The notes under the pieces are model-generated. The model saw only the letters and a program-made list of their open reading frames with translations, was not told the DNA's origin and searched no databases. Made by a program: the position numbers and the translations under genes. DNA of 64,000 nt from Streptomyces californicus (GTDB lineage: Bacteria; Actinomycetota; Actinomycetes; Streptomycetales; Streptomycetaceae), in the NCBI RefSeq assembly GCF_000717645.1, contig NZ_JNZZ01000003.1:310001-374000 (forward strand), given 5' to 3'. Below, one piece after another: positions 27,149 to 52,930 of the stretch. How positions within the stretch are numbered: position 1 is the stretch's first letter; the number at the start of each line of letters is the position of its first letter.

Positions 27149-27149
27149 T

Positions 27150-31522: not shown

Positions 31523-32380
31523 ATGAGTCGTCCGCCCACCTTCGCCCCGCCGCCCTGCGCCCGCTCCCGTGTCCTGCCCACGGAGCGCGGTGACTTCGCC
31601 GTCCTGGACGCCGTACCGCGTACGCCGGAACGGGCCACCGCCCTGCTGCTGCCCGGGTACACCGGCAGCAAGGAGGACTTCGTCGCCCTGCTCGAACCGC
31701 TGTGCGCGGCCGGCTACCGGGTGGTCGCCGTGGACGGCCGGGGGCAGTACGAGTCGAAGGGGACGGGCCGCCAGGAGGACTACGCCCGGGCGGAGTCGGC
31801 CCGGGACGTGCTCGCCCAGGCGGCGGCGCTGGGGACGGGCCCGGGAGAGCTGCACCTGCTCGGGCACTCGCTCGGCGGCCAGATCGCGCGCGCCGCCGTC
31901 CTGCTGGACGCCGCCCCGTTCCGTTCGCTGACGCTGATGTCCTCGGGTCCGGCCGAGGTGGTCGCCGCCCAGCGGGAGAAGGTGAAGATGCTGGGCGACG
32001 CGCTGGCCGTGCTGTCGATGGACGAGGTGTGGGAGGCGATGCGGGCGCTGGACCCGCCGCAGGACGCGGACACCGGTGACGGCGCGGACCTGCGCCGCCG
32101 CTGGCTCGCCCACGACCCGGCCCAGCTCATCGCCACCGGAGCCCAGTTGGCCACCGAGCCGGACCGGGTGGACGAGCTGGCGGCCGTGGGGCTCCCCGTC
32201 CACGTGCTGTCCGGGGAGCGCGACGACGTCTGGCCGGTGGAGCTGTTCGACTCCATGGCGCGGCGCCTCGGCGCCCACCGCACGACGATCGCCGGGGCCG
32301 AGCACTCCCCCAACACCGCCCGCCCCCGGGAGACCGCGCAGGCGCTGGCCGCGTTCTGGGACGGTCCGGCCCCCGTCTGA
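31523..32380 (+). CDS. Alpha/beta-fold hydrolase
   Basis: This 285-aa hydrolase has oxyanion motif LPGYTGSKEDF, nucleophile GHSLGG (about residue 116), acid Asp in SGERDDVWP and base His in GAEHSPN. GRGQYESKG after the third strand is conserved in this subgroup. It is probably a cytoplasmic esterase of unknown substrate. The ATG at 31523 is the first start after the terminator. Its 3' end, including the TGA stop, is copied in a 27-bp tandem repeat. Confidence 0.87.
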   Translation: MSRPPTFAPPPCARSRVLPTERGDFAVLDAVPRTPERATALLLPGYTGSKEDFVALLEPLCAAGYRVVAVDGRGQYESKGTGRQEDYARAESARDVLAQAAALGTGPGELHLLGHSLGGQIARAAVLLDAAPFRSLTLMSSGPAEVVAAQREKVKMLGDALAVLSMDEVWEAMRALDPPQDADTGDGADLRRRWLAHDPAQLIATGAQLATEPDRVDELAAVGLPVHVLSGERDDVWPVELFDSMARRLGAHRTTIAGAEHSPNTARPRETAQALAAFWDGPAPV

Positions 32381-32448
32381 CGGGGCGTCCGTCCGGCTCC
32401 CCTCTGACGGGGCGTCCGTCCGGCCCCCGGCTGACGGCGCGTCCCACC
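32368..32448. repeat. 27-bp x 3 tandem repeat spanning the hydrolase stop codon
   Basis: Three copies at exactly 27-bp spacing, beginning 32368, 32395 and 32422. Copy 1 contains the last codons and TGA of the hydrolase, and the other two repeat them downstream, each keeping TGACGG. The period is nine codons. Confidence 0.85.
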
Positions 32449-32468
32449 AGGCGCGGCCCCGGCCCCGC

Positions 32469-33380
32469 TCAGTACTGCGCCTGGAGGTGCTGCCAGAAGC
32501 CGTCGCGGAGCGCCCGCCGCAGGTGGGCGTGGCCGCGCAGCGAGCACTGGAGCAGCCGTTCCGCCTCGACCAGGAGGTCCTGGTCGGTGGAGCCCGGCAG
32601 ATAGGGCCGGCCGGGCAGCAGGTCGGCCAGGGAGTCGCGGCCCCGGGCGGCGAGCCAGGCGGCGGCGACCTGGGCGCCAACGAAGCGGACGTCCTCCCGG
32701 GAGGGGGCCGGTGTGTCGTCCTCGTACGTGGTGACGGGGCGCCGCGTGACGTAGGGGCGGCAGAAGTCGAGGTCGAAGGTGCGCTGGCTGTCGACCTCCC
32801 ACAGCAGCGGTTCGGCCTGGTTGCGGCCGTCCGCGGCCTCGATGCCCCACAGGTGCACGCGGGCCCCGTACCCCTGGGCCGCCTCCACCGCCGAGACCAG
32901 GTCCTCGTCGCCGCCGACGAGGGCCGCGTCGCTGATGGCGCGGTGGCGGGCGAGGGATTCGAGGTCGGTGCGGATGAGGGAGTCGACGCCCTTCTGCTGG
33001 TTGTTGGCGTTGAGGTTGCCCAGCCGCACCTTGACGTCGGGCAGTTCGGCGATGGCCTGCTGCTCGGCGGTGTGGATGCGGCGGCGGGCCCCGTCGTACC
33101 AGTAGACGCGCAGCAGCCTGCTGTCCGCGAAGATCGTGCGCGCCTTGTCGATGAAGGCGTCGATCAGCCCCTCGGCGTCGAGGTCGAAGGAGCGCCGGTC
33201 CTCGGTGCCGGTGACGAGCAGCCCGGCCGCCGCGTACACGTACCCGGCGTCCACGAAGATGGCGTGCGTCGACGGCGTCTTGGCGACCTCGACGAGCATG
33301 CGCTGGAGCAGCTCGTTGGTGCGGTCCAGGCGGGCGGCGAGACCGGTGCCCGCGCCGAGCTGCGGGTCCCCCTCGTTCAT
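32469..33380 (-). CDS. NYN/PIN-fold ribonuclease-like protein
   Basis: This 303-aa protein has an NYN domain, a PIN-like metal-dependent RNase fold. Acidic metal ligands are seen in HAIFVDAGYVY (about residue 44), QQKGVDSLIRTD and VGGDEDLV, in the correct order. The C-terminal ~90 residues are helical with no recognised family. It probably processes or degrades RNA. The ATG at 33380 has GAGG five bases upstream. It is divergent from the sigma-R-type promoter of the 50-codon gene. Confidence 0.85.
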   Translation of the reverse strand: MNEGDPQLGAGTGLAARLDRTNELLQRMLVEVAKTPSTHAIFVDAGYVYAAAGLLVTGTEDRRSFDLDAEGLIDAFIDKARTIFADSRLLRVYWYDGARRRIHTAEQQAIAELPDVKVRLGNLNANNQQKGVDSLIRTDLESLARHRAISDAALVGGDEDLVSAVEAAQGYGARVHLWGIEAADGRNQAEPLLWEVDSQRTFDLDFCRPYVTRRPVTTYEDDTPAPSREDVRFVGAQVAAAWLAARGRDSLADLLPGRPYLPGSTDQDLLVEAERLLQCSLRGHAHLRRALRDGFWQHLQAQY

Positions 33381-33452
33381 GCGAACCTCGTGGTCTGTGG
33401 TGCTGCGGTTACCAACGGGTACTTAGACATCCAAAAAATTTCCTTAGCGTAG

Positions 33453-33478
33453 GGAATGTTTGCAGAGGGCATCTCGTT
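33453..33478 (+). promoter_or_regulatory. Sigma-R-type promoter of the 50-aa protein gene
   Basis: GGAAT (33453-33457), 18 bases, GTT (33476-33478), exactly the sigma-R consensus, in the AT-rich gap between the NYN gene and the small gene. Transcription would begin near 33484 and give a leader of about 100 bases with two stem-loops. Confidence 0.75.
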
Positions 33479-33489
33479 GTAACCGGTGT

Positions 33490-33544
33490 GGAACGCGAGG
33501 GAAGCCTCGCGTTCCTAGTCTTGCCGGTGGGACGCCCCACCGGC
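33490..33544 (+). promoter_or_regulatory. Two stem-loops in the 5' leader of the 50-aa protein gene
   Basis: Stem 1 is GGAACGCGAGG/CCTCGCGTTCC with a GNRA-type loop GAAG (33490-33515). Stem 2 is GCCGGTGGG/CCCACCGGC with loop ACGC (33523-33544). Both are perfect and lie between the predicted transcription start and the ribosome site. They may stabilise the message or regulate it. Confidence 0.55.
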
Positions 33545-33587
33545 GCCAGTAGTTCTCCAGCAGGAGGATCAGACGAAGGGAAGCCCT

Positions 33588-33740
33588 ATGCGCTTCGAGA
33601 TCATGCGCCTCGACGACGTCGACGGTACCGCCGTGGACAGCACCGTCGTGGACGCCGCCTCCGTCAACCGGATCGTGCAGCAGGCCGCGGCGACGGGCCA
33701 GCGCATCTACATCCGGCCGGCCGACAGTACGGCCTCGTAA
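33588..33740 (+). CDS. Conserved 50-aa protein
   Basis: A short gene beginning MRFEIMRLDDVDGTAVDSTV and ending IYIRPADSTAS. AAGGGAAG lies four bases before the ATG and codon usage is typical. I recognise this small Streptomyces family but know no function. It has no membrane segment or cysteine. The pattern of a strand, a helix (AASVNRIVQQAA) and a strand (QRIYIRP) suggests a small alpha/beta fold. A strong terminator follows, so it is a single-gene unit. The sigma-R-type promoter suggests a role in thiol-oxidative stress, which is inference. Confidence 0.82.
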   Translation: MRFEIMRLDDVDGTAVDSTVVDAASVNRIVQQAAATGQRIYIRPADSTAS

Positions 33741-33807
33741 CCGCTCGACGGTCAGGTGACGTCCGATGAGGCCACGGGTCTCGCCGCATCGCGCCGCTGA
33801 AGAGGAA

Positions 33808-33840
33808 GCGCCCCCGCACGGAACGTCCGTGCGGGGGCGC
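33808..33840. terminator. Terminator after the 50-aa protein gene
   Basis: A perfect 15-bp inverted repeat GCGCCCCCGCACGGA with loop ACG. It serves the small gene and the convergent MarC gene. Confidence 0.9.
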
Positions 33841-33922
33841 AGTGCTGTACGGAGGAGGGCACGGGGCCGACGGGCCCCTGCGCGAGGAGCCGCCGGGCGG
33901 AGCGCCCGCGCCGTCCGGCCGG

Positions 33923-34528
33923 TCAGGAGTCCTGGATGACCTGGGTGACGCCGTTGATGATCTGCTGGACGGCGATGGCGGAGAGCATCATGCCGGCGAG
34001 ACGGGTCACCAGCACCACACCGCCGTCCTTGATCACGCGGATGATGACGAGCGAGTAGCGCATGGCCAGCCAGAGCACCACGTGCATGGCGGCGATCGCG
34101 GACCACACGGAGAGCTGGCCGCCGAGACCGTCGGCGTGCTGCACGGCGAGGATGACCGAGACGATGGCGCCGGGCCCGGCGAGCAGCGGCATGCCCAGCG
34201 GTACGAGCGCCACGTTGACGTCCTTGGTCTGCGTCGGCTCGTCCGTCTTGCCGGTCAGCAGGTCGAGCGCGATGAGCAGCAGGAGGAGTCCGCCCGCGAT
34301 CATCAGGGCGGGTACGGAGACATGCAGATAGTCGAGGATCTGCTGGCCGAGCACGCCGAACACGGCGATCACGCCGAAGGCGACCATGACCGCCTGGAGC
34401 GCCATCCTGCGCTGCACCTTGGCGGGGCGGCCCGCCGTGAGGGCGAGGAAGATCGGGGTGATCCCGGGCGGGTCCATGATCACGAACAGGGTGAGGAAGA
34501 GGGATCCGAAGACAGCGACGTCGAACAC
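33923..34528 (-). CDS. MarC-family integral membrane protein
   Basis: This 201-aa protein has six predicted helices, with the family signature FVIMDPPGITPIFLALT after helix 1 and LVPLGMPLLAGPGAIVSVIL in the middle. MarC (UPF0056) proteins have no settled function; the old link to multiple antibiotic resistance was withdrawn. The GTG at 34528 (VFDVAVFGSL) gives the normal family length and has AAGG six bases upstream; longer in-frame starts to 34606 add a non-conserved tail. Confidence 0.9.
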   Translation of the reverse strand: MFDVAVFGSLFLTLFVIMDPPGITPIFLALTAGRPAKVQRRMALQAVMVAFGVIAVFGVLGQQILDYLHVSVPALMIAGGLLLLLIALDLLTGKTDEPTQTKDVNVALVPLGMPLLAGPGAIVSVILAVQHADGLGGQLSVWSAIAAMHVVLWLAMRYSLVIIRVIKDGGVVLVTRLAGMMLSAIAVQQIINGVTQVIQDS

Positions 34529-34660
34529 AGTGAGCCTTGCGAGAGATGAGCGGGCGGTACGGGGCGGCGCGGAGCCGGGCAGCGGGCGTCGCGGTGCGTC
34601 GGGCACGCGACGGTACGCACGGGGGCGCGCGGAAAGAGGACGGGTGGTGCGGCAGGTCGG

Positions 34661-35527
34661 CTAGCGGCGGACGGCTCCGCCGGCGCCCGGCACGGGGAAG
34701 GCCCCCGTGGCGCGCCGGGTGATCTCGCCGTAGACCTCGGGGTCGGTGGTGCACGCGCCGAGTTCGATGGGCTTGCGGCTGCCGTGGTAATCGCTGGAGC
34801 CGGTGGTCAGCAGGTCCAGTTCGCGGGCGAGGCCGCGCAGCCGGGCCCGGGCGGGCGCGTCGTGGTCGAGGTGGTCGACCTCGATGCCGTCGAGTCCGGC
34901 GGCGGCGAGCGCCGCGATGGTGGACTCGGGGACCACGGCGCCGCGTTTCACGGCGGCGGGGTGGGCGAAGACGGTCACCCCGCCCGCGGCCTTCACCAGC
35001 CGGACGGCGTCGAAGGGGTCGAGCTCGTGCTTCGCCGCGGACGCCCGTCCCCCGTGGCCCAGCCACTCGGGCGTGAAGGCGTCGGAGACGGTGGGGACGA
35101 CGCCGAGCTCGACGAGGGCGGCGGCGACGTGCGGGCGGCCGACCGAACCGTCGCCGGCGATGCGGGCGACCTGTTCCCAGGTGACGGGGACGTCGAGGGC
35201 GCGCAGCTTGCGGATCATCTCCCGGGCGCGCGGCACCCGGTCGTCGCGGACGCGCTCCCGGGCCTGCGCCAGCTCGGCGTCGGCCGGGTCGAAGAGGTAC
35301 GCGAGCAGGTGCATGCTCACGCCGTCCACCCGGCAGGACAGCTCGGCCCCGGTGACGAGCGTGAGGCCCTCGGGCAGTGCGTCGACGGCCTCACGGTGTC
35401 CGCCGACGGTGTCGTGGTCGGTGAGCGCGACGACGTCCAGGCCCGCGGCGACGGCGTTGGCCACCAGCTCGGCGGGGGTGTCCGTGCCGTCCGAAGCGGT
35501 GGAGTGGGTGTGCAGATCGATGCGCAC
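34661..35527 (-). CDS. PHP-domain phosphoesterase
   Basis: This 288-aa protein has the PHP metal-binding motifs in order: DLHTHSTASDG, ALTDHDT, GAELSC, VFAHP and SSDYHG. These match the TrpH/YciV group, which dephosphorylates 3',5'-nucleotide bisphosphates or trims RNA 5' ends. The substrate here is not proved. Start is ATG at 35527 (MRIDLHTHS). It is in the same direction as MarC and DUF6758, with gaps of just over 100 bases. Confidence 0.9.
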   Translation of the reverse strand: MRIDLHTHSTASDGTDTPAELVANAVAAGLDVVALTDHDTVGGHREAVDALPEGLTLVTGAELSCRVDGVSMHLLAYLFDPADAELAQARERVRDDRVPRAREMIRKLRALDVPVTWEQVARIAGDGSVGRPHVAAALVELGVVPTVSDAFTPEWLGHGGRASAAKHELDPFDAVRLVKAAGGVTVFAHPAAVKRGAVVPESTIAALAAAGLDGIEVDHLDHDAPARARLRGLARELDLLTTGSSDYHGSRKPIELGACTTDPEVYGEITRRATGAFPVPGAGGAVRR

Positions 35528-35587
35528 GACGCGTGACTCCGGGGCTCGCGGGCGGACGGGGGACCGCTCAAGGATAACCGCAGCCCA

Positions 35588-35676
35588 GCGCTCCCCCGCC
35601 GCCCGTCGCTCCCCGCCGTCCGCCGCTCCCCCGCCGCCTGTCGCTCCCCGCCGCCTACCGCTCCCCCGCCGCCTGT
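35588..35676. repeat. 17-18-bp tandem repeat spanning the DUF6758 stop codon
   Basis: About five copies of CGCTCCCCCGCCGCCTG-like sequence run from the gap into the last codons of the DUF6758 gene (stop at 35655-35657). They repeat its terminal codons RQAAGER and lie immediately downstream of the gene. Confidence 0.75.
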
Positions 35677-36332
35677 CGCGGCGGCGTCTCGGGGCGGGCG
35701 AGCAGCCGGGGGCTGAGCGCGCCGCAGGGGACCAGGTCCACCTCTCCCCCGGCGTCCCGGAGGTCGGTCAGGACCAGTTCGTCGTACATCAGGAGCCCCG
35801 ACTGCTCCGGCCACAGGATCGCCCAGAGCCAGAGCCCGCGCGCCTCGCCGGCGAAGACGGCCCGGTCCTCCGGGGCGTTCTTGACGTGCCAGAGCGGGGT
35901 GGGGCGGCCGGCGGCGTGGACCTTGGCGTCGGGGGCGGCGTCGACGTTCAGATGGGGGCCGGGGTCCAGTCCCTCGATCCCCGCGTACCGGGCGCCGAGG
36001 CCGACGCCCAGCTCCTCGGCGACCAGCAGCAGCTCTCCCATACCGCCCAGGGGGCCGGGCCCGGAGCAGGCCACGGCGCTCGCGCGTCCGCCGCTGCGGT
36101 CGTCGCCCGCGCCGGCGACGCCGGTGAACAGCCAGCCCACGGGGAGCGGCCAGGGCATCCAGACGGGGACCCGGGCGCGGTGCACCACGACGCCGAGCGC
36201 TTCGACGCTCGGCGGGACGACCGGCTGCAGCGGCTGGACCGGGCCGTGCGCGGCGCACTGCCAGGCGTCGGCGAAGAGGCCGGGCGCCCTGACCCGGCCA
36301 CCGCACTTCGGGCAACTGGGTTCGCCCCTCAT
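35655..36332 (-). CDS. DUF6758 family protein with N-terminal zinc ribbon
   Basis: This 225-aa protein starts MRGEPSCPKCGGRVRAPG. The CPKC pair and the later WQCAAHG suggest a small zinc-binding knuckle. The rest is a conserved Streptomyces family (DUF6758) with SVEALGVVVHRARVPVWMP and RSGGRASAVACSGPGPLGG. No catalytic motif or signal is seen, and the function is unknown. The ATG at 36332 is immediately at the conserved N terminus. The 3' end takes part in a tandem repeat. Confidence 0.88.
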   Translation of the reverse strand: MRGEPSCPKCGGRVRAPGLFADAWQCAAHGPVQPLQPVVPPSVEALGVVVHRARVPVWMPWPLPVGWLFTGVAGAGDDRSGGRASAVACSGPGPLGGMGELLLVAEELGVGLGARYAGIEGLDPGPHLNVDAAPDAKVHAAGRPTPLWHVKNAPEDRAVFAGEARGLWLWAILWPEQSGLLMYDELVLTDLRDAGGEVDLVPCGALSPRLLARPETPPRQAAGER

Positions 36333-36420
36333 AACCCCCCACCGTCCTCCCCGCCGGACGTCCCGTCAAGGACGATCACCCGTCCGCAGCGTGGCTCTGA
36401 CCGGGGAAAATAGGTGTAGC

Positions 36421-36449
36421 TTGCATTTATTAGTTTGTCTAACTTATCC
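36421..36449 (+). promoter_or_regulatory. Promoter with embedded palindromic operator upstream of MFS gene
   Basis: An AT-rich island in a GC-rich genome. TTGCAT (36421-36426) and TTATCC (36444-36449) are spaced by 17 bases, and between them lies a dyad with half-sites TTAG (36430-36433) and CTAA (36439-36442). A MarR- or TetR-type repressor binding here would block RNA polymerase. No regulator gene is adjacent. Confidence 0.45.
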
Positions 36450-36500
36450 TGTGCATAACGCATCGATCCGGCGAGGCCGAAGGAGAGAGGGAGAGAGCCC

Positions 36501-37739
36501 ATGCAGGGAGAGGATCCGTTCGACGAGGGGGCGACGGGGGCCGGGCTCCTGCGCCAGCCGAAGGCCGTCTGGGCCACGGCGGGCGCATCGGTGGTGGCCT
36601 TCATGGGGATCGGACTGGTGGACCCGATCCTCCCGTCCATCGCCAAGGGACTGGAAGCGTCGCCGAGCCAGGTGTCGCTGCTGTTCACCTCGTACTTCCT
36701 GATCACCGCGTTCGCGATGCTGGTCACCGGCTTCGTCTCCAGCCGCATCGGCGGCCGCAAGACCCTGCTGGCCGGCCTCGCGCTCGTGATCGTCTTCGCC
36801 GCCCTCTCCGGCACCTCGTCCTCGGTCGGCGAACTGGTCGGTTTCCGGGCCGGCTGGGGCCTGGGCAACGCCCTGTTCGTCTCCACCGCCCTCGCGGTGA
36901 TCGTCGGAGCGGCGGCGGGCGGCAGCGCGGCGGCGATCCTGCTGTACGAGTCGGCGCTCGGCCTCGGCATGGCGTGCGGGCCGCTGCTCGGCGCGCTGCT
37001 GGGCGACGCGAGCTGGCGCTACCCGTTCTTCGGGACGGCGGCGCTGATGGCGGTCGGCTTCCTCTGCATCGCGGCATTCCTCAAGGAGCAGCCGAAGCCG
37101 GCCCGCAGGACGTCCCTGCTCGATCCGGTGAAGGCGCTGGGCCACGGCGGACTCGCCTCGGTGGCGGCGTCGGCGTTCTTCTACAACTACGCCTTCTTCA
37201 CGATCCTGGCGTTCACGCCGTTCGTGCTGGACATGACCCCGTACAAGTCGGGCGCGGTCTTCTTCGCCTGGGGTCTGCTGCTCGCCGTCTTCTCCGTGCT
37301 GGTCGCCCCGCGCCTCCAGCGCCGCTTCGGCTCGCTCAAGGTGCTCGGCGCCTCACTGGTGCTGCTCGCGGCCGACCTGCTGGTCCTCGGATACGGCGGC
37401 CACACCACGGCGGTCGTCGCCACGATCGTCTCCGGCGCGTTCATCGGCATGAACAACACCGTCTACACCGAGCTGGCCCTCGGCGTCTCGGACGCGCCGC
37501 GGCCGGTGGCGAGCGCCGGGTACAACTTCGTCCGCTGGTTCGCCGCGGCGGCCGCCCCCTTCCTGGCCCCGAAGATCGAGGAGTGGACCGATGTCCACAT
37601 CCCGTTCGTCGTGGCCGCGCTCGCCGCCGTCGTCGGAGCGGTCGTCGTGGGCGTCCGGCGTACGGCGCTGACCCACGAGGCGCAGGAACTGGAGCCGGTC
37701 CACGCCATGGAGGACGGCGTCACGGCCTTCGCCGACTGA
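36501..37739 (+). CDS. MFS transporter (drug-efflux type)
   Basis: Major facilitator protein, 412 aa, with 12 predicted helices. Motif A-like GFVSSRIGGRKTLL follows helix 2, the N-terminal helix 1 ends in GLVDPILPSIAKGL, and helix 5 has GMACGPLLGALLG, typical of drug:H+ antiporters (motif C-like). It probably exports small toxic compounds. The ATG at 36501 has GGGAGAGAG upstream. Expression is probably controlled by the AT-rich palindromic promoter. Confidence 0.9.
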   Translation: MQGEDPFDEGATGAGLLRQPKAVWATAGASVVAFMGIGLVDPILPSIAKGLEASPSQVSLLFTSYFLITAFAMLVTGFVSSRIGGRKTLLAGLALVIVFAALSGTSSSVGELVGFRAGWGLGNALFVSTALAVIVGAAAGGSAAAILLYESALGLGMACGPLLGALLGDASWRYPFFGTAALMAVGFLCIAAFLKEQPKPARRTSLLDPVKALGHGGLASVAASAFFYNYAFFTILAFTPFVLDMTPYKSGAVFFAWGLLLAVFSVLVAPRLQRRFGSLKVLGASLVLLAADLLVLGYGGHTTAVVATIVSGAFIGMNNTVYTELALGVSDAPRPVASAGYNFVRWFAAAAAPFLAPKIEEWTDVHIPFVVAALAAVVGAVVVGVRRTALTHEAQELEPVHAMEDGVTAFAD

Positions 37740-37831
37740 CCCTCCGTGGACCCGGCCGGGCCCGGTCCGGCGGCGCGCCCGACGCACCGCCCGGATCCGG
37801 CCCGGCCGACGTACCGGTGACGGCCGGGGGG

Positions 37832-37957
37832 CTCAGTCCAGCGGTACGTCCCGGTGGCGGCCGACCGGACTCCGAACAGCGGTGGGTCCCGCCGGTCCCA
37901 GTCCAGCGGTAGGCCCAGGTGGCGGCCGGTCGGTCTCAGTCCAGCGGTACGGACGTG
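37832..37957. repeat. Repeat array copied from the 3' end of the SUFU gene
   Basis: Copies of CTCAGTCCAGCGGTACG start at 37832, 37897 (one change) and 37935, with GGTGGCGGCCG-type sequence between. The third copy is the true end of the SUFU-domain gene (codons for VPLD and stop), so the others are duplications of the gene tail. Confidence 0.75.
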
Positions 37958-38520
37958 CGCAGCGGATCGCGTACGTCCGTACCGTGCGTCAGCCACCGCT
38001 CCTGGAGCTCCTGCGCCCCGCGCACCCGCTTCCAGGCGGCCTCGTTGGGCGTCATCGGCAGCAGCGGCAGGAAGCGCACCGGCTCCATCGGCTCGTCCAG
38101 CTCCAGGTCCTCCACCAGGCCGCCGGACTCCGCGACCAGGACGGACGTGAACGGCGCCCCGGGCCACAGCGGTTCGCCCAGGTCCAGCGAGGCGCCCGGG
38201 GCCACGATCACCCCCTCGACCTGCGGGGAGGTGGCCAGCACGGCGAGCGGGCGCAACACCTGGTCGGTGTCGGCGAGTCCGCCCCGTACGGAGAGGACCA
38301 GCTCGGCGCGCGGACCCTTCACCGGATCGGCGAGCGGGGAGGTCGGATCGGCCATCGGCGCGCCCGACATGCCGAGCGTCGCGTACCGCACGATGTCGCC
38401 GTCGAGGAAGCGCAGCACCTGGACGCGGTCCGTGCCGAGGAACGTCACATCGGCGCGTGCGTCCGGCTCCCCGAGGGCGGAGACGAGCCGCGCCTCGACC
38501 AGCGCGAGAATTTCTGCCAT
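37936..38520 (-). CDS. Suppressor-of-fused (SUFU) domain protein
   Basis: This 194-aa protein is a single bacterial SUFU domain: VTFLGTDRVQVLRFLDGD, then ATLGMSGAPMADP, then PRAELVLSVRGGLADTD, and the family's FLPLLPMTPNEAAWKR near the C terminus. The bacterial role is unknown; some relatives are immunity proteins in toxin systems, but no toxin gene is nearby. The ATG at 38520 (MAEILALVEARL) begins the conserved region. It is divergent from the corA leader. Confidence 0.87.
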   Translation of the reverse strand: MAEILALVEARLVSALGEPDARADVTFLGTDRVQVLRFLDGDIVRYATLGMSGAPMADPTSPLADPVKGPRAELVLSVRGGLADTDQVLRPLAVLATSPQVEGVIVAPGASLDLGEPLWPGAPFTSVLVAESGGLVEDLELDEPMEPVRFLPLLPMTPNEAAWKRVRGAQELQERWLTHGTDVRDPLRTSVPLD

Positions 38521-38595
38521 GCCGCGAGCATAGATCGCGTAGTGAATGGGCAAAGTACGGGATTGGCCCTGGGACGGCTGATAGCCTGGCCGCCG

Positions 38596-38661
38596 GTCGG
38601 GACAGCGCGCAGAAGCGTCGCTCTTCTTCGTCCCGACGACACGTCGTCCCCCACGGGGGAC
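38596..38661 (+). promoter_or_regulatory. Structured 5' leader upstream of the corA leader ORF
   Basis: Two stem-loops stand in series. GTCGGGAC (38596-38603) pairs with GTCCCGAC (38630-38637), enclosing AGAAG/CTTCT. GTCCCCC (38646-38652) pairs with GGGGGAC (38655-38661) around a two-base loop. They lie just upstream of GGAGGAGG. TAGCCT (about 38582-38587) may be the -10 element. This is not a recognised riboswitch. Confidence 0.45.
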
Positions 38662-38685
38662 CGGCCGGAGGAGGTGGGGACTGCC

Positions 38686-38745
38686 ATGGATCCAAGTCGA
38701 CCGTGCAGTACCGACCGCTCTTCCGCGCCTCGCCTTTCCCGTTGA
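38686..38745 (+). CDS. 19-aa putative leader peptide of corA
   Basis: The tiny ORF MDPSRPCSTDRSSAPRLSR is preceded by the very strong GGAGGAGGTGGGG (38667-38679). Its make-up (acidic-Pro start, many Pro, Ser and Arg) recalls the enterobacterial MgtL leader peptide [17 protein letters not shown], which controls a magnesium transporter by ribosome behaviour in low Mg2+. Codon third positions are not GC-biased, unlike normal genes here. It ends 240 bases before corA. It could be a regulatory leader or chance. Confidence 0.4.
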   Translation: MDPSRPCSTDRSSAPRLSR

Positions 38746-38839
38746 TCCGACGCCTCGTCGGTCGTCCGGTGCCGGCCCCTCCGTCACCGCAGGACGCCTC
38801 CCCGACGGCGGTTCGCGTGACGGAAGAGCTCTTCGTTCC

Positions 38840-38876
38840 TGCCTGCCTGTAACGAGTTTTGCCTGTCTGTAGCGAA
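38840..38876. repeat. Imperfect direct repeat in the corA leader
   Basis: Two adjacent copies of TGCCTGyCTGTArCGA (y, r mark differences) lie about 19 bases apart between the leader ORF and corA. They might be regulator half-sites. Confidence 0.4.
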
Positions 38877-38913
38877 CGCCGTCATCGCGCCCGCGCGGTG
38901 GAGCCCGCTTTGC

Positions 38914-38931
38914 GGACGTGAGCTCACGTCC
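38914..38931. promoter_or_regulatory. Perfect 18-bp palindrome upstream of corA
   Basis: GGACGTGAGCTCACGTCC is a perfect palindrome ending 54 bases before the corA ATG. It could be a dimeric-repressor operator or an RNA hairpin with a 7-bp stem and loop AGCT. Confidence 0.5.
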
Positions 38932-38985
38932 CCATTCCGGGCTGTTCCACGCCCTCGCCGACGGCCCTCCGTGAAGGAGCCAGCC

Positions 38986-40798: not shown

Positions 40799-40812
40799 CC
40801 CGTCCGCCGCCG

Positions 40813-43711: not shown

Positions 43712-43736
43712 CCCCCAGCGCCGTAACATCGTCCGT

Positions 43737-44870: not shown

Positions 44871-44908
44871 CGCGTCCTCGCGGGCGGGAACGCGCCCGAG
44901 GGCGACGG

Positions 44909-44953
44909 ACACGACGGGGCGGGCCGGTGGTCATCCGGCCCGCCCCGTCGTGT
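44909..44953. terminator. Terminator after mrp
   Basis: A perfect 19-bp inverted repeat (ACACGACGGGGCGGGCCGG and complement) with a 7-base loop, 39 bases after the mrp stop, between convergent genes. Confidence 0.9.
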
Positions 44954-45032
44954 CGTTCCGCCCCGGGCCGCGCACGTCGCCCGCCCGGCCCCTCCTCGTC
45001 GTGCGCGCGCCGTCGTGCCGCGTGGGCGGCCG

Positions 45033-45707: not shown

Positions 45708-45830
45708 CTGCGCGGCCGCCTCCTCGATCAGTCATGATCCGGAGCGGCCCGCCCCCCGCGGGCTCGGGTCCTCGCAACCGGACAGATGGAGAATAGCCAT
45801 ACCGTCCGGACGAGCCGGGATTGACCGGGG

Positions 45831-46322
45831 TCAGGTGGCGTCTGCGTCGAACGGCGGGCGCTCGGGCCGGTCCTGCCGCGGTGCCTTCTTCAGCAGGTCA
45901 GGAGTGGTGTCGCCGGTCTTGGTGAGGCTGGTGGAGCCGCTGCCGGAGGCCGCGCCGTCCGCCGCACTGTTGGCGGTATCGGAGGCGGCCGGGGTGCGCC
46001 CGTTGACCGCGTCGGTGACCTCGGCGAGGTCCTTGCGCAGGTCGAAGCTCTCACGGATCTCCTTGAGCCCCAGGTCGTCGTTGCCGTCCATGAGCTGCTT
46101 GCGGACGAACGTCTTGGGGTTGAGGTCCTCGAACTCGAAGTCCTTGAACTGCGGACCCAGCTCGGAGCGGATGTCTTCCTTGGCGCTGTCCGAGAACTCG
46201 CGGATCTTGCGGATGGTGCGGGTGACGTCCTGGATCAGCTTGGGCAGCTTGTCGGGGCCGAAGACCAGCACGGCCAGCACTCCGAGCGTCAGCAGCTCCA
46301 GCGCGCCGATGTCATTGAACAC
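45831..46322 (-). CDS. tatB: Sec-independent translocase subunit TatB
   Basis: This 163-aa protein has one N-terminal helix (LELLTLGVLAVLVFG), the TatA/B hinge FGPDKLPKLIQDV and an amphipathic helix, followed by a long hydrophilic tail rich in Ala, Asp, Ser and Thr. The glutamate in IGALELLTLG matches TatB. It recognises twin-arginine signal peptides with TatC. The start is GTG at 46322. It follows the HtrA protease gene, as in mycobacteria (htrA-tatB). Confidence 0.92.
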   Translation of the reverse strand: MFNDIGALELLTLGVLAVLVFGPDKLPKLIQDVTRTIRKIREFSDSAKEDIRSELGPQFKDFEFEDLNPKTFVRKQLMDGNDDLGLKEIRESFDLRKDLAEVTDAVNGRTPAASDTANSAADGAASGSGSTSLTKTGDTTPDLLKKAPRQDRPERPPFDADAT

Positions 46323-46474
46323 CTAGTCGCTCCTCGTGTTCTCCGCGTGTTCTCCGTGCGATCACGGCCGGGCTCCCCGCCGCCCGGACCGCTCAAAGGT
46401 ACCTGTCCAAGGTGTCCGGGCGGTACCTCGCGGTGGACGTCAGGGGCCGGTCCGGCCGGATCGGCCCGTCATCG
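46323..46474. other. Gap between htrA and tatB
   Basis: This 152-base stretch holds an imperfect repeat CTCCGCGTGTTCTCCGTGCG near 46335-46360. No hairpin of note is present, so tatB may be co-transcribed with htrA. Confidence 0.3.
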
Positions 46475-48433
46475 TCACGCACCGCTCGCGGAGCCGAGCT
46501 TCAGGGTCACGGTCCGTTCCGCGCCGCCCCGGGTCAGCTTCAGCTCCAGCGCGTCGCCGGGGCGGTGGGCGCGGATCTTCACGATCAGCTCCTCTCCGCT
46601 GTGCACGCGCTGCCCCTCGACGTGGGTGATGACGTCGCCGGACCGGATGCCCGCCTTCGCCGCCGGGCCGTCCGCGGCGACGGCCGGCCCGCCCTCGGCG
46701 TCCTTGGCGCCGACCTTGGCCCCGTCGCCGGTGTACTTCATGTCCAGCGTGACGCCGATGACCGGGTGGGTGGCCCGGCCGGTGCTGATCAGCTCCTCGG
46801 CGACGCGCTTGCCCTGGTTGATCGGGATGGCGAAGCCGAGGCCGATGGAGCCGGACTGGCCGCCGGACTCGGGGCCCCGTCCGCTGTCGGCCGCCCGGAT
46901 GGCGCTGTTGATGCCGATGACGTGGGCGCGGGTGTCGACCAGCGGGCCGCCGGAGTTGCCCGGGTTGATGGGGGCGTCGGTCTGGAGGGCGTCGACGTAG
47001 CTGATGTCGCTGCCGTCGCCCTTCTCGCCGCCCGCGGTGATCGGCCGCTGCTTGGCGCTGATGATCCCGGAGGTCACGGTGTTGGAGAGGTCGAAGGGCG
47101 CGCCGATGGCCACGACGGGGTCGCCGACCTGGACGTTGTCGGAGTTGCCCAGGGGCAGGGGCTTGAGCCCGGAGACCCCGCGCACCTTGACGACCGCGAG
47201 GTCGTAGCCGCTGTCCTTGCCGACGAGTTCGGCGGAGGCCGTCTCGCCGGTGCTGAACGTCACGGTGATGTCCCCGCCGCTTCCGGCCGGGGCGACGACG
47301 TGGTTGTTGGTCAGGATGTGGCCCTGGCCGTCGAGGACGAAGCCGGTGCCCGTGCCGGACTCGGCGGCGCCGCTGACGTGCAGGGTGACCACGCTGGGCA
47401 GGGCGCTGGCGGCGATGCCCGCGACGCTCTCGGGGGCCCGGCCGCCGTTGTCGCGGTCCGCCTGCGGCAGTTCGACGGTGGTCAGGCCGCCGTTGCGCTC
47501 GACGTACGCGCCGACTCCGCCGCCGATGCCGCCGGCGACCAGGGCCAGCAGGAGCGCCCCCATGAACGCCCCGCCGCGCCGCTTCTTCCGCCGCCCGGGG
47601 TCCCCGCCCTCGGGTCCCGGCCGGGTCAGCGGCTCGCCCGGGGCGCCCCAGGGGTCGTACTGGAGCCACTGCGTCTGGGGCTGCGTGTGCGTCTGCGTCT
47701 GCTGCGGGGGCGGCGCCGGTGCCGGATGGGGCGCCGGGTGCTCGGGGGCATTGTGCGGCGGCTGCGGGGCGTGGGCCTGGGGCTGCGGGGGCGGCAGCGG
47801 GAAGCCGTCGGCGGCGGTGGACGCGGGTACGGGGGGCGGGGTGACGCCGCCGCCCGGCGCGGCATAGCGCGGCGCGGGGCCACCGGCCCCCGGGGGTACG
47901 ACGGTGCCGTGCGCGGGGGTGGGCCGCTGCACGGGCGGGGCGGGCGCCCATGGACCGGGGTCGCCGTAGGGCGGGGTGCGGTACTCGTCGGGCTCGTGCA
48001 ACGGCTGCCCGGCCGCCCGGGGCCGGGGGACGTCGGTGCCGGGCTCGGGCGGGTGCGCGGCCGACTCCCGGTCCTCGGGAACGGCGGGCGCGGGAACCGC
48101 CGGGGCCTCGCTCGGGGCGGCGGGCGCGGGGGCGACCGGGGGCTTGCTCGGGGCGGCGGGCGCGGAAACCGCTGGGGACTCGCTCGGGGCGGCAGGCGCG
48201 GGGGCCGCCGGGGGCCTGCTCGGGGCGGCGGGCTCCCGGGCCTCCGGGGCGGCGGGCGCGGGGGCCGCCGGCCCGGAGCGGGCGTCACGCGCCCCGGTCT
48301 CGTCCGACGGCACCGGCTCCGGGGTCCCTGCCTCCGGGCCCGGGGCGGCCTCCCGCCCGGGGTGGTCGGCGCGCCGCGCCGCGGGGCGGCTCCACCACTT
48401 CGCCTGCGGCCCGGTGGGCTTCCCGTCGTCCAT
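46475..48433 (-). CDS. htrA: HtrA-type serine protease (S1C) with PDZ domain
   Basis: Membrane-anchored envelope protease, 652 aa. A long Pro/Ala-rich cytoplasmic tail containing repeated APAAPSEPPAV-like motifs precedes one membrane helix (about residues 281-303). The protease domain has catalytic His in ILTNNHVVAP, Asp in SGYDLAVVKV and Ser in PGNSGGPLV. A C-terminal PDZ domain contains AAKAGIRSGDVITHVEGQRV. It degrades misfolded exported proteins. The ATG at 48433 has GGGGAGAG directly upstream. It lies downstream of sigma and anti-sigma genes of the same stress unit. Confidence 0.93.
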   Translation of the reverse strand: MDDGKPTGPQAKWWSRPAARRADHPGREAAPGPEAGTPEPVPSDETGARDARSGPAAPAPAAPEAREPAAPSRPPAAPAPAAPSESPAVSAPAAPSKPPVAPAPAAPSEAPAVPAPAVPEDRESAAHPPEPGTDVPRPRAAGQPLHEPDEYRTPPYGDPGPWAPAPPVQRPTPAHGTVVPPGAGGPAPRYAAPGGGVTPPPVPASTAADGFPLPPPQPQAHAPQPPHNAPEHPAPHPAPAPPPQQTQTHTQPQTQWLQYDPWGAPGEPLTRPGPEGGDPGRRKKRRGGAFMGALLLALVAGGIGGGVGAYVERNGGLTTVELPQADRDNGGRAPESVAGIAASALPSVVTLHVSGAAESGTGTGFVLDGQGHILTNNHVVAPAGSGGDITVTFSTGETASAELVGKDSGYDLAVVKVRGVSGLKPLPLGNSDNVQVGDPVVAIGAPFDLSNTVTSGIISAKQRPITAGGEKGDGSDISYVDALQTDAPINPGNSGGPLVDTRAHVIGINSAIRAADSGRGPESGGQSGSIGLGFAIPINQGKRVAEELISTGRATHPVIGVTLDMKYTGDGAKVGAKDAEGGPAVAADGPAAKAGIRSGDVITHVEGQRVHSGEELIVKIRAHRPGDALELKLTRGGAERTVTLKLGSASGA

Positions 48434-48522
48434 GCTCTCCCCGCAACTGGCCGCTGTACGCCCTCCAGGGGCGTCCCTCGGCGGAATTCAACCAGGTTTG
48501 CGAATCTCCGCGCAGGGTCCGG

Positions 48523-49575
48523 TCAGGGACGGGGCGACAGCGGGCTCGCCAGATCGTTGGCGGGCACGCCCGGAAGGGGCACCGAGGGGGCCGCCTTCGG
48601 CTTGGCGCCGCTGCCGAGCGCCACCGGCAACGGGGTACCGGGGGCGGCCGGGCGGACCAGCGGCGGCACGGTCACGTTCAGCACGGGGAGCACGAAGGGG
48701 TGCCCGGCCGGGACCTGGCCGGCGAACAGGCGAGGCGTGGTCGGCGGTGCCTTCCGGTTCACCGGAGGGGTGACGGCCGGGGCCGTCGGAGCCTTCCCGG
48801 TGAGCGCCGGAGGCACGCTGTTCGTGCCGGAGGGGGCCGTGCCGGAGGGCTGTGCCGGCGAGAGGAGGCCCTCGTCGGAGGCGGTGAGAGCGCCGCCGCC
48901 CCGACGGCTGACCGCCTTGGCGCCGTTCTCCGCGCGGGTCTCCGCGTCGAGCGGCGAAACGTTGTTCCCGGCGCCCTCGGCCCGGAGCGAGGGTTCGGGG
49001 CCGGAGTCGAGCGGCAGCGTGCCGCCCAGCGCGATGGCCGCGAGCGAGACGGCGCCGGCCGCCGCGAAGGCGAAGCGCCGGCCGCGCCAGGGCGAGCGGT
49101 CCGCGTCGCGGGCCACGTCGTGTATGCGGAAGACGGAGCCGCCGGGCCCGCCGGGCAGCACGGCGGTGGAGCCGTGCGCGGCGGGAACGTATCCGAAGCC
49201 GTCCAGCGGGGAGGGCGCCGGGTCGGCGTGGGCGGCGGAGCCGGTGGGCCGCGGCCCGGGGAAGAACTCCTCGGCGAAGGGTCCGCCGCCACCGAACGGC
49301 GCGCCGGAACCGGGCCCGTCGCCGCCAGGACCCCCGGGGAGGCCCTGGAGACGGGCCAGGAACCCCTCGGAGGGCGACGGTGAGGCGGACATGGCGAAGG
49401 CGCTCTTCAGACGGCGCTGGGCGTCGGCCTCGGCCTTGCACTTGGCGCAGGTCGCCAGATGGGCCAGGACCCGCTCGCGGGCGTCGTGCTTCAGCTCGCC
49501 GTCGACCAGCGCGGCGAGCCGGTCCCCCAGGTGCGCTTCGGCAGGGGTGGGACCGGTCGGACCTGTGCCACTCAC
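48523..49575 (-). CDS. Zinc-binding anti-sigma factor (RseA-type)
   Basis: This 350-aa protein binds the sigma factor encoded just upstream. The N-terminal ZAS domain reads [17 protein letters not shown] then [11 protein letters not shown], giving the Hx3Cx2C zinc signature. A membrane helix lies near residues 170-188 ([18 protein letters not shown]), followed by an extracytoplasmic, Pro/Thr/Ala-rich domain. The start GTG overlaps the sigma gene stop (GTGA, 49572-49575), so the partners are translationally coupled. A long Gly/Pro-rich linker separates the ZAS domain from the helix. Homologue by order: mycobacterial RseA (Rv1222), which lacks this long tail. Confidence 0.88.
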
Positions 49576-50333
49576 GCCAGCCCGACCTCCTCCGCCAGGA
49601 TCGCGTCCGCCAGGGAGCGCTGCTCGGCGCGGGCCTCGGGCGAACGGTGCTTGAGGGCCTTGCGCAGGTGCGATCGGCCGCGGTGGATACGGCTGCGGAC
49701 GGTGCCGAGCTTCACCCCGAGGGTCGCGGCGATCTCCTCGTAGCTGAGGCCCTCGATGTCGCAGAGGACGACGGCCGCGCGGAACTCGGGCGCGAGGGTG
49801 TCCAGCGCCTGCTGCACGTCGGCGTCGAAGTGCGTGTCGTTGAAGACCTGCTGCGGGGACGGCTCACGGCTGGGCAGCCGCTCCGCCGCGTCGTCGCCGA
49901 GCGAGTCGAAGCGGATGCGCTGCTTGCGCCGGACCATGTCCAGGAAGAGGTTCGTCGTGATGCGGTGCAGCCAGCCCTCGAAGGTGCCGGGCGTGTACGT
50001 CGACAGCGAGCGGAACACCCGGACGAAGACCTCCTGGGTCAGGTCCTCGGCGTCGTGCTGGTTTCCCGTCAGGCGGTAGGCGAGGCGGTACACGCGACCG
50101 CTGTGCGTGCTGACGATCTCTTCCCATGAGGGCGGGGTCCACGCCTGGGCATCCGCATCGGAGGCGAAGGTCGCGGTCGGTGCGGAGGCTTCGGAAGAAC
50201 GGTCAGCAATGTCGGTCACGGATTTCGGCTCACCGGCCGACCTGAGAAGGCGCCGCAGCTTCCCTCCCCGGTCCACAGGCGCAGCCGCACCTCCCCTATC
50301 GGCTCTGGTGGTGTCCAGTGGAGCCCCTACCAT
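49572..50333 (-). CDS. sigE: ECF RNA polymerase sigma factor, SigE-like
   Basis: This 253-aa extracytoplasmic-function sigma factor has region 2 ([20 protein letters not shown] then [20 protein letters not shown]) and region 4 ([20 protein letters not shown] then [20 protein letters not shown]). The N-terminal extension of ~80 residues is low complexity. The ATG at 50333 ([12 protein letters not shown]) has GAGGTGG close upstream and gives a length near mycobacterial SigE; the longer frame to 50462 runs over the promoter. The gene set matches mycobacterial Rv1220c-Rv1224, so a role in envelope stress is likely. Streptomyces sigE naming differs, so the symbol refers to the mycobacterial orthologue. 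Confidence 0.88.
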
Positions 50334-50460
50334 AGCCACCTCGCCCGTTAGCTCCGGATAAGCCTTTTCCCTGATGGGGCCGGGCGTCGCCCGGTTCTTC
50401 GGCCCAGCTCGGCGGCCCGCTCCGCGGTCCCGGTCGCTGCGCTCTCCCCACTCCCTGCAC

Positions 50461-50486
50461 AACGCCCGGTCCCATCTGCGGGTTCC
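50461..50486 (-). promoter_or_regulatory. ECF-type promoter upstream of the sigE-like gene
   Basis: On the minus strand GGAAC (50486-50482), 17 bases, CGTT (50464-50461). This resembles promoters read by SigE-type ECF factors (GGAAC-N16/17-CGTT) and suggests autoregulation. The expected leader is about 120 bases. It partly faces the methyltransferase promoter on the other strand. Confidence 0.5.
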
Positions 50487-50510
50487 CGGGTCCAGCGGAT
50501 ACAGTCACCG

Positions 50511-51176
50511 TTGCGCCAACTACGGGGACAGGAGAGGGTCATTACCGCCAACCGGCAGACGAGCTGGGCGTTCGCCGACGCCTTTGTCGCCGAGGACGAA
50601 GCACTGCACGTGGCCCGGGAGCGGGCTCACGAGCTGGGGCTTCGCCCGGTGTCACCGGGCACCGGCGCCGCGCTGCGCCTGCTGGCGGCCGCCGCGGACG
50701 CCAAAGCGGTGGCCGAGATCGGCACGGGCACGGGCGTGTCCGGCATGTATCTCCTGCACGGGATGCGGCCGGACGGCGTACTGACCACCGTGGACCCCGA
50801 GCCCGAGCGCCAGCAGTTCGCCCGGGAGGCGTTCCGCCAGGCGGGCTTCGCCACCAACCGGGCCCGGTTCATCCCCGGCCGCGCCCTGGACGTCCTGCCC
50901 CGGCTCGCGGACGGCGGGTACGACCTCGTCTTCTGCGACGGCGACCGCCTGGAGAGCCTCGGTGTGCTCGCTGAATCGTTGCGCCTGCTGCGCCCCGGCG
51001 GCCTGGTCTGCTTCGAGGGCGTCTTCGCGGACGGCCGTACGGTCGACTCCGCCGCCCAGCCGGCCGAGGTGCTGCGGGTGCGGGAGCTGCTGCGCGCGGT
51101 GCGCGAGAGCCAGGAGCTGATGTCGACCCTGCTGCCGGTCGGCGACGGCCTGCTCTGCGCGGTCCGCCGCGGCTGA
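50511..51176 (+). CDS. SAM-dependent O-methyltransferase
   Basis: A class I methyltransferase of up to 221 aa, family 3 (catechol/caffeoyl-CoA type). SAM-binding motif is VAEIGTGTGVSGMYLLHGM, later VDPEPERQQFA, metal/loop region VFCDGD and LRPGGLVCFEGV. It is the neighbour of sigE in mycobacteria too (Rv1220c). The start is unclear: TTG at 50511 is five bases after a TACAGT -10-like hexamer, while ATT at 50541 (ITANRQTSW) has AGGAGAGGG just upstream and fits the conserved N terminus. The substrate is unknown. Confidence 0.88.
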   Translation: MRQLRGQERVITANRQTSWAFADAFVAEDEALHVARERAHELGLRPVSPGTGAALRLLAAAADAKAVAEIGTGTGVSGMYLLHGMRPDGVLTTVDPEPERQQFAREAFRQAGFATNRARFIPGRALDVLPRLADGGYDLVFCDGDRLESLGVLAESLRLLRPGGLVCFEGVFADGRTVDSAAQPAEVLRVRELLRAVRESQELMSTLLPVGDGLLCAVRRG

Positions 51177-51384
51177 CCGCCTACGGCGACCGGGACACAC
51201 GCGATCCGGCGCGACTGACTGCCCCCGTACGGCGACCGGGACGCACACGGCCCGGCGCCCGGCCGGCCCCGTACAGCGGCTGGGACACACACGGCCCGAC
51301 GCGGCTGACCTCCGTACGGCGTCCGGCGCGGCTGACCTCCGTACGGCGTCCGGCGCCGCTGACCTCCGTACGGCGTCCGGCGCG
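51169..51384. repeat. Tandem repeat array starting at the methyltransferase stop codon
   Basis: Three near-perfect 27-bp copies (51304-51330, 51331-51357, 51358-51384) of GCTGACCTCCGTACGGCGTC-type sequence follow older, longer diverged copies from 51169. The first copy includes the gene's last codons and TGA. A terminator follows directly. Confidence 0.85.
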
Positions 51385-51395
51385 CGGCCCGGACG

Positions 51396-51437
51396 CACCG
51401 CTGCCCCGGTACGGAGGTCCGTACCGGGGCAGCGGTG
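51396..51437. terminator. Terminator between methyltransferase and DUF3117 genes
   Basis: A near-perfect palindrome: CACCGCTGCCCCGGTACGGA pairs with its complement around two bases, a 20-bp stem. It lies between two convergent genes. Confidence 0.92.
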
Positions 51438-51457
51438 AAGGTGATGGGCTATCCGCG

Positions 51458-51625
51458 TCAGCCGACGACCTTCTTCAGCGCGTCGCCGAGGGCATCGGCC
51501 TCGTCCGGAGTCAGCTCGACAACGAGTCGACCGCCGCCTTCGAGCGGAACCCGCATGACGATGCCCCGCCCCTCCTTGGTCACCTCGAGCGGGCCGTCGC
51601 CCGTCCGCGGCTTCATGGCCGCCAT
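51458..51625 (-). CDS. DUF3117 family protein
   Basis: This 55-aa protein starts MAAMKPRTGDGPLEVTKEGR and contains VMRVPLEGGGRLVVELTPDE, the full DUF3117 domain, conserved in actinobacteria (mycobacterial Rv1211) with unknown function. Start ATG at 51625 is chosen because GGAAGGGG lies seven bases upstream; ATG at 51616 is possible. The predicted fold is a few strands and one helix. Confidence 0.92.
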   Translation of the reverse strand: MAAMKPRTGDGPLEVTKEGRGIVMRVPLEGGGRLVVELTPDEADALGDALKKVVG

Positions 51626-51941
51626 GCTCGTTCCCCTTCCTGAAACCAGCTCAATCGCAACCGGCGGCCCCATGACAGGCGCTGCCTCACCGGCATCGAA
51701 CAGATTGCTTCTTCGCCATTATCCCGCATCAATGACCCCGATGACCAACATCGGTCTGCATCGCTTGCGCAACGCGCTCTCGCAAAACCACCCAATTCGG
51801 CGATCCGGCTGCGATACTGCGCCGCCCCGGGCCCCCGGGTGAGCGCCGATCGTTAGACGCAGGTCACATATCTGCCCCGCGCCGGATCGGCCATGCTTGC
51901 CTCCAGTGGCAACGATGCCCGAGCAGCGAGGGGATACCGGA
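51626..51941. other. Divergent promoter region, DUF3117 and enoyl-CoA hydratase
   Basis: This 316-base region is lower in GC around 51720-51830, as for promoter regions here. No small gene is convincing on either strand, and no clear repeat is seen. A specific promoter pair cannot be assigned with confidence. Confidence 0.35.
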
Positions 51942-52754
51942 ATGGCCGACGAGCCGGCGAACACCGTCCTGTACGACGTGAGCGAGGGGCTCGCGACGAT
52001 CACGATCAACCGACCCGACGCGATGAACGCGATGAACACCGCGGCGAAGGTCGCGCTCCGGGACGCGCTGCTCGCCGCGGGGGCGGACGCGGGCGTCCGG
52101 GCGGTCCTGCTCACGGCCACCGGGCGCGCCTTCTGCGTCGGCCAGGACCTGAAGGAGCACGTCGCCACCCTGCGGGCCACCCGCGAGGCGGGCGGCGGGA
52201 ACGCGCTGAGCACGGTCCAGGAGCACTACAACCCGATCGTGCGGGCGATCACGGAGATGGCGAAGCCGGTCGTGGCCGGAGTGAACGGGGTCGCGGCCGG
52301 GGCCGGATTCGGGTTCGCGCTGGCGGCGGACTACCGCGTGGTCGCCGACACCGCCTCCTTCAACACGTCCTTCGCGGGCGTCGCCCTCACCGCCGACTCG
52401 GGCGTGTCCTGGACCCTGCCCCGGCTGATCGGGCAGAGCCGCGCCGCCGATCTGCTCTTCTTCCCGCGGTCGGTCTCCGCGCAGGACGCCCTGGAGCTGG
52501 GCATCGTCAACCGGGTCGTCCCGGCGGCGGAGCTGGCCGAGCAGGCGGCAGCGGTGGCCCGCACCCTGGCCGCCGGCCCCACGGTGGCGTACGCGGCGCT
52601 GAAGGAGTCCATGGCGTACGGCGCCGGGCACACGCTCGCCGAGGCGCTGGAGAAGGAGGACGAGCTCCAGACCCGGGCGGGCGCGTCGCAGGACCACACC
52701 ATCGCGGTGGAGGCGTTCCTCGCCAAGGAGAAGCCGGTCTACCTCGGCAAGTAG
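51942..52754 (+). CDS. Enoyl-CoA hydratase/isomerase (crotonase family, PaaG-like)
   Basis: This 270-aa protein of the crotonase fold hydrates or isomerises acyl-CoA. The oxyanion hole is formed by GRAFCVGQDLKEH and GVNGVAAGAGFGFALAADY. The catalytic region reads TADSGVSWTLPRLIG, with an aspartate as in PaaG isomerases rather than the glutamate pair of true hydratases. The ATG at 51942 (MADEPANTV) follows GAGGGG by eight bases; upstream in-frame ATGs lack a site. The 3' end, with its TAG, is copied in a 48-bp repeat. Confidence 0.88.
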   Translation: MADEPANTVLYDVSEGLATITINRPDAMNAMNTAAKVALRDALLAAGADAGVRAVLLTATGRAFCVGQDLKEHVATLRATREAGGGNALSTVQEHYNPIVRAITEMAKPVVAGVNGVAAGAGFGFALAADYRVVADTASFNTSFAGVALTADSGVSWTLPRLIGQSRAADLLFFPRSVSAQDALELGIVNRVVPAAELAEQAAAVARTLAAGPTVAYAALKESMAYGAGHTLAEALEKEDELQTRAGASQDHTIAVEAFLAKEKPVYLGK

Positions 52755-52930
52755 CGGATCGGCGGAGCGTGCCGCGGCCGGCCGGACTGCCTCGGGAAGC
52801 AGCGGATCAGCGGGGCGGGCCGCCGCCGACTGGGCTGCCTCGGGAAGCAGCGGATCAGCGGGGCGTGCCGCCGCCGATCCGGTCCGCCTCGGGAGGAGCC
52901 GCTCAGCCGGGCGTGCCGCCGCCGCGTGCC
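52742..52930. repeat. 48-bp x 4 tandem repeat joining two gene ends
   Basis: Four copies at 48-49-bp spacing start at 52742, 52790, 52838 and 52887. Copy 1 contains the last codons and TAG of the enoyl-CoA hydratase. Copy 4 contains the end and stop of the convergent Tag gene. Copies 2 and 3 are near identical to each other. Confidence 0.88.

Follow-up and report, generated by a model that had tools for sequence, protein, structure and literature searches.

Arrays of short tandem repeats lie close to, and in places over, the 3′ ends of genes in a 64,000-nucleotide stretch of Streptomyces californicus DNA (bases 310001-374000 of contig C3 in a draft genome of 7.78 Mb and 104 contigs), referred to here as the window. 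They are probably ordinary minisatellites, which arise by neutral local tandem duplication and slippage, are tolerated behind genes and are purged at gene starts. In a genome sample which includes the window, starts are strongly avoided, whereas coverage of stops roughly matches, or falls slightly below, the expectation from random placement. Since the number of arrays over stops does not exceed that of random placement, the arrays are not a class aimed at stop codons. An initial annotation had described them as a class of minisatellites made from gene ends, and had proposed slippage, a spacer function or a read-through buffer to account for them. The evidence presented here favours slippage and tandem duplication.

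Placement of arrays relative to stops and starts

The sample covers 1.96 of the 7.78 Mb and includes contigs C3, C4 and C5 in their entirety, 540 of the 587 kb of C1 and 400 of the 575 kb of C2. Genes (1581) were predicted with a hexamer caller self-trained on this sample and are not an annotation; start positions are approximate and some small genes are missed, such as the DUF3117 gene at 51458-51625. Arrays were identified with Tandem Repeats Finder (TRF). Exclusion of periods below 10, scores below 50 and overlapping TRF rows left 702 non-redundant arrays, 311 of them lying mainly between genes and 385 entirely within coding sequence.

Among the 311 intergenic arrays, 42 cover a stop and 3 cover a start (45 and 8 among all 702). 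When 310 of the 311 arrays (one has no assignable gap type) were scattered at random over gaps of matching type in 200 permutations, the expectation was 50±6 over stops and 35±5 over starts: 186 permutations gave at least as many stop-covering arrays as observed and none gave as few start-covering arrays. When each array is confined to its own gap, the expectations are 54.6±5.7 and 29.4±4.8, respectively. Arrays with a score of at least 80 cover 29 stops (33±5 expected) and 2 starts (22±4), and those with a score of at least 100 cover 21 stops (23±4) and 2 starts (15±3). Four gene-calling thresholds give 40-42 stop-covering and 2-3 start-covering arrays, and the use of strong genes only gives 34 and 1. 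Array density per kb of gap is 1.60 in convergent, 1.18 in tandem and 0.54 in divergent gaps. In two relatives, for each of which 400 kb was analysed, 10 of 42 (G005) and 11 of 37 (G019) intergenic arrays cover a stop, and 2 and 0 cover a start. Their median ortholog identity is 91% and 88%, respectively.

The asymmetry between stops and starts anticipated in the initial annotation is therefore real (42 versus 3) but it reflects a deficit at starts and not an excess at stops. This provides a placement rule for a GC-rich bacterium: minisatellites almost never lie over a start and lie over stops about as freely as elsewhere in the gap. The units of different arrays show no family resemblance beyond that found in shuffles. 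A dispersed repeat family was considered and rejected: 164 units with a score of at least 80 include 25 similar pairs, compared to 22-32 in five shuffles.

Copying of gene tails

Copies of gene tails were also sought independently of TRF. The last 24 nt of each gene, including the stop, was compared to the following gap and a match of at least 18/24 was scored as a copy; gaps below 25 nt and genes below 240 nt were left out. Such copies follow 31 of 1116 gene ends (17 of 454 in convergent and 14 of 662 in tandem gaps). Segments ending 24-200 nt inside the gene gave 1-3 copies, two shuffles of the gaps gave 1 and 0, and the same test at gene starts gave 3 of 1178. The relatives gave 5 of 227 ends versus 0 of 250 starts (G005) and 3 of 247 versus 1 of 257 (G019), with no copies in either genome for segments 24-96 nt inside the gene. 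Tail copying thus exceeds chance, and the excess over background is restricted to roughly the final 24 nt of each gene. A further count, in which 19 of 27 positions flanking the stop must match, identified 88 copies at 61 genes compared to 12.4 in shuffles.

Reading frame and stop retention

A read-through buffer, in which the copies supply in-frame backup stops behind the primary stop, is so improbable that we give it hardly any weight. Some copies do place stops in frame (those at 32380, 51176 and 52903), and the strictest copy threshold leaves 27 copies, 15 of them in frame (p 0.023). These copies are correlated, however, and with one copy per gene the figure becomes 8 of 18 (p 0.33). Over all 88 copies, 34 are in frame. 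Certain arrays have periods which are multiples of three (27 and 48 bp), as originally remarked, but this is true of only 15 of the 42 stop-covering intergenic arrays and does not represent a preference (p 0.75). The proportion is 345 of 385 for coding arrays. We also observed 122 triplet periods among the 266 intergenic arrays which touch neither a stop nor a start, more than one third; this excess probably includes some missed coding or pseudogene sequence.

The stop itself receives no special treatment in the copies. It initially appeared less conserved than its neighbours (43% versus 62% and 52%) but this was an artefact, since copies had been chosen on those neighbours. When each triplet was dropped in turn from the choice of copies (leave-one-out), the original triplet survives at the stop in 38 of 88 copies, just before it in 40 of 72 and just after it in 34 of 81 (43% versus 56% and 42%). 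A stop is present in 16 of 34 in-frame and 23 of 54 out-of-frame copies (p 0.83). Within 30 codons behind 769 stops, the frame of the gene holds 235 further stops and the two alternative frames hold 225 and 308. A eubacterial survey likewise reports no selection for extra stops (PMC6764699). There is no trace of selection for in-frame stops in the arrays, and backup stops are not in frame more often than chance. Stop codons inside repeats are therefore, by themselves, no ground for reading function into them.

Turnover between relatives

Gaps were compared one by one for contig C3, using 209 orthologous gaps in G005 and 181 in G019. No array is present in G005 for 34 of 43 array-bearing gaps, nor in G019 for 29 of 36. 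Arrays are mostly species-private, and their absence from the gaps of relatives argues against a conserved spacer function.

The gap between the convergent genes at 31523 and 32469 was followed more widely and ranges from -16 to 1013 bp over 83 distinct loci. By eye, several species seemed to have tail copies in this gap, but few of the 51 gaps surveyed pass a fixed threshold of 14/18 and frequent recurrence is not claimed. Two A-side loci do so (the window itself and one weak case) together with one B-side locus (L146, 17/18); the corresponding counts are 0.25 and 0 after shuffling and 1 and 0 with control segments. An attempt to estimate births per ancestral base from the gap lengths of relatives was also given up as untrustworthy, since array-free convergent gaps already differ by a median of 27-45 bp. 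The pattern as a whole suggests that part of the length of convergent gaps is short-lived repeat growth.

Hairpins and terminators

It is highly unlikely that the arrays are terminators or other RNA or DNA structures repeated for their function. Terminator-like hairpins are indeed present in 3′ gaps: of 947 3′ gap halves, 380 contain a hairpin of the tested type, compared to 113 after shuffling. Hairpins are also found in 32 of 266 arrays versus 20.5 in mononucleotide shuffles, but size-matched, array-free gap segments contain them in 216 of 1330 cases and the arrays are therefore not enriched. In addition, the window has no Rfam match at gathering cut-offs, and the arrays are mostly not kept in relatives.

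Origin of the arrays

In the reading we prefer, that of neutral duplication, arrays would originate in place, through tandem duplication and slippage, within the intergenic gaps of this 73% GC Streptomyces genome. A duplication reaching back over a stop would leave the protein unchanged, since the first copy still ends it, and behind a gene it would disturb no promoter. Arrays located there would therefore persist for some time and drift. Ahead of a gene, such a duplication would displace or copy a promoter, ribosome site or start, and selection would remove it. Both the slippage mechanism and the purging by selection are what we infer from these data.

Several observations weigh against this reading. 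One is the in-frame excess at the strictest copy threshold. Another is that an array also occurs in the relative for 9 (G005) and 7 (G019) of the array-bearing gaps; where both genomes carry one, units were compared by eye, for gaps in the window. For some window arrays outside the repeat-rich stretch 15997-16538 (those at 35578, 40162 and 51296), weak matches turn up in other parts of the sample, as many as 11 at E 0.01, a figure obtained without a shuffled control. Finally, arrays are not evenly spread behind stops. Among the tandem gaps, the 144 that measure 300 bp or more have a coverage of 0.18-0.20 at 40-100 bp past the stop, falling to 0.06 at 200-300 bp. The odds of an array also increase with each 3′ end when array-subtracted gap length is held equal (added logits of +0.86 for tandem gaps, bootstrap 95% 0.42 to 1.33, and +1.61 for convergent gaps, 1.01 to 2.08). 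Passive tolerance alone may be insufficient to explain the coverage peak behind stops.

These last results bear on a rival explanation, in which gene 3′ ends are the birthplaces of minisatellites and duplication is more frequent up to about 150 bp past the stop as a result of transcription termination, polymerase stalling or fork encounters. We consider this unlikely. Overall array coverage is 0.06-0.07 in the first 15 bp after stops and peaks at 30-100 bp (0.14-0.22), a peak which persists in the long tandem gaps, and, for gaps of equal length, more 3′ ends mean higher odds of an array. Moreover, of 112 arrays in hairpin-bearing tandem gaps, 37 are placed between the stop and the hairpin, compared to 26.3 expected at random. 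However, no peak is seen in the 22 convergent gaps that measure 300 bp or more, where coverage is 0.03-0.06 at every distance, and at the stop itself arrays do not exceed random placement. Constraint within long gaps could mimic this pattern, and relatives are not a reliable guide to ancestral gap lengths. The excess behind stops fits either a mutational hotspot or such constraint. It is doubtful that a zone approximately 30-150 bp behind stops gives birth to minisatellites, with tails copied outwards and gaps growing and turning over from their 3′ ends. If the excess were mutational, it would link transcription ends to local duplication.

Arrays in the window

The window arrays (Table 1) were checked with TRF, on the sequence itself, with the gene caller, with Pfam and with the TRF-independent copy search. 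All ten proteins tested have a Pfam family match; nine of them are encoded beside the five places named in the initial annotation or in the same stretch. These five places were each said to carry the tail and stop of a gene. This is true of the TRF arrays beginning at 32364, 35578 and 52733, but the array at 51182 starts after the stop and the copies at 37832-37957 are dispersed. Three further arrays, described as related (at 1838, 9592 and 27150), cover no stop. The three stop-covering intergenic arrays compare to approximately 1.4 expected per 64 kb (from 42 in 1.96 Mb), and the window is not clearly enriched.

Table 1. Repeat arrays and tail copies at gene ends in the window
Feature	Position	Strand	Detection and context
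33-bp x 2.2 intergenic array	1840-1910		TRF; no stop or start inside, nearest stop 38 bases off
31/61-bp intergenic array	9591-9763		TRF; begins 30 bp past stop of gene 6613-9561
25-bp x 2.4 intergenic array	27149-27207		TRF; directly behind hairpin, 60 bp past stop of gene 26862-27089
27-bp x 3.0 array	32364-32444	+	TRF; over stop 32378-32380 of alpha/beta-hydrolase gene 31523-32380
35-bp x 2.9 array (or 18-bp half-units)	35578-35679	-	TRF; over stop 35655-35657 of DUF6758 gene 35655-36332
Dispersed, non-tandem tail copies of SUFU-family gene 37936-38553	37832-37957	-	TRF-independent copy search
44-bp array (51182-51310) and 27-bp array (51296-51384)	51182-51384	+	TRF; just behind O-methyltransferase gene 50649-51176
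48-bp x 4.0 array	52733-52924		TRF; fills convergent gap, covers stops of both converging genes

The 27-bp array behind the hydrolase gene lies in a convergent gap ahead of an NYN-domain gene (32469-33380, minus strand). TGA is found in two further copies, both in frame. The corresponding gap, at 32381, is 4 bp in G005 and 58 bp in G019, with an array in neither. The stop position of the DUF6758 gene reads CAG, CGG, CGG and TGG in the four scored copies, and neither relative has an array at this place. For the SUFU-family gene TRF reported no array; its tail copies occur at a displacement of 38 (where the stop has become TGG) and 103 (TGA kept), with a weak copy at 174.

Behind the O-methyltransferase gene, the first array begins 5 bases after the stop (51174-51176) and does not cover it. 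A single tail copy, 19/27 at a displacement of 42, keeps TGA in frame. In the corresponding gap, at 51177, the same stop is covered in G005 by another tail duplication (32 bp x 2.0), which differs from that of the window and appears to have arisen independently, and G019 has no array. The small DUF3117 gene missed by the caller (minus strand, Pfam E 5.9e-29) makes this gap convergent. A strong hairpin at 51396-51437, between the O-methyltransferase and DUF3117 genes, is also present in G005 and G019.

The 48-bp array covers the stops of an enoyl-CoA hydratase gene (plus strand, 52752-52754) and a methyladenine glycosylase gene (minus strand, 52903-52905). TAG has become CAG in both scored copies and TGA is kept in both. 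The gap, at 52755, measures 4 bp in G005 and 42 bp in G019, and neither contains an array. Among the arrays away from stops, that at 1840-1910 has no array in its place in either relative. The gap of that at 9591-9763 carries other arrays in the relatives, where its limits differ by a start call. At 27149-27207, both relatives keep the hairpin without an array. Similarly, a 19-bp array at 58891-58949 repeats the 3′ arm of the adjoining hairpin, and G005 and G019 keep a hairpin there without the array.

Other repeats lie within open frames. A 725-aa frame at 14825-17002 (minus strand) includes repeats of 24-51 bp at 15942-16538 and has no Pfam match at E 0.001; the gene caller accepted its C-terminal part alone (14825-15868). 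Imperfect repeats at 30443-31278, with periods nearly all divisible by three, fill the last third of a DEAD-box helicase gene (28797-31349). A tRNA-Ala called by ARAGORN at 29041-29124 (minus strand) is probably false, because it lies within the helicase frame and has no Rfam RNA there at gathering cut-offs.

Comparison with known systems

The intergenic arrays share the general properties of bacterial minisatellites and variable number tandem repeats (VNTRs): head-to-tail units of approximately 15-60 bp, mostly in 2-5 imperfect copies and differing between species. The TRF arrays are head-to-tail copies of a 10-100 bp unit, as minisatellites are, and the dispersed copies at 37832-37957 are not. 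In contrast to typical VNTR loci, many intergenic arrays here are built from the tail of the adjoining gene and avoid starts, in a comparison made between species only. No description of gene-tail minisatellites in Streptomyces was found by title in the mostly open-access literature covered, which says little about whether one is in print.

Mycobacterial interspersed repetitive units (MIRUs) also form tandem units at gene boundaries in an actinomycete. They belong to one dispersed family, whereas the units described here have no family resemblance. Fail-safe stop codons resemble the tail copies in placing extra stops downstream of the primary stop but, unlike them, the arrays favour no frame and do not preferentially retain the stop. 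Triplet periods in coding arrays (345/385 here) are shared with prokaryote satellites, as reported in a study of these (PMC6749651). Finally, according to a report on protein C-termini which arise de novo by a shift of the stop codon (PMC4494051), a gene end and the gap which follows exchange sequence in that process too; in the arrays described here, in contrast, the end of the protein stays where it is and the tail is copied outwards into the gap.

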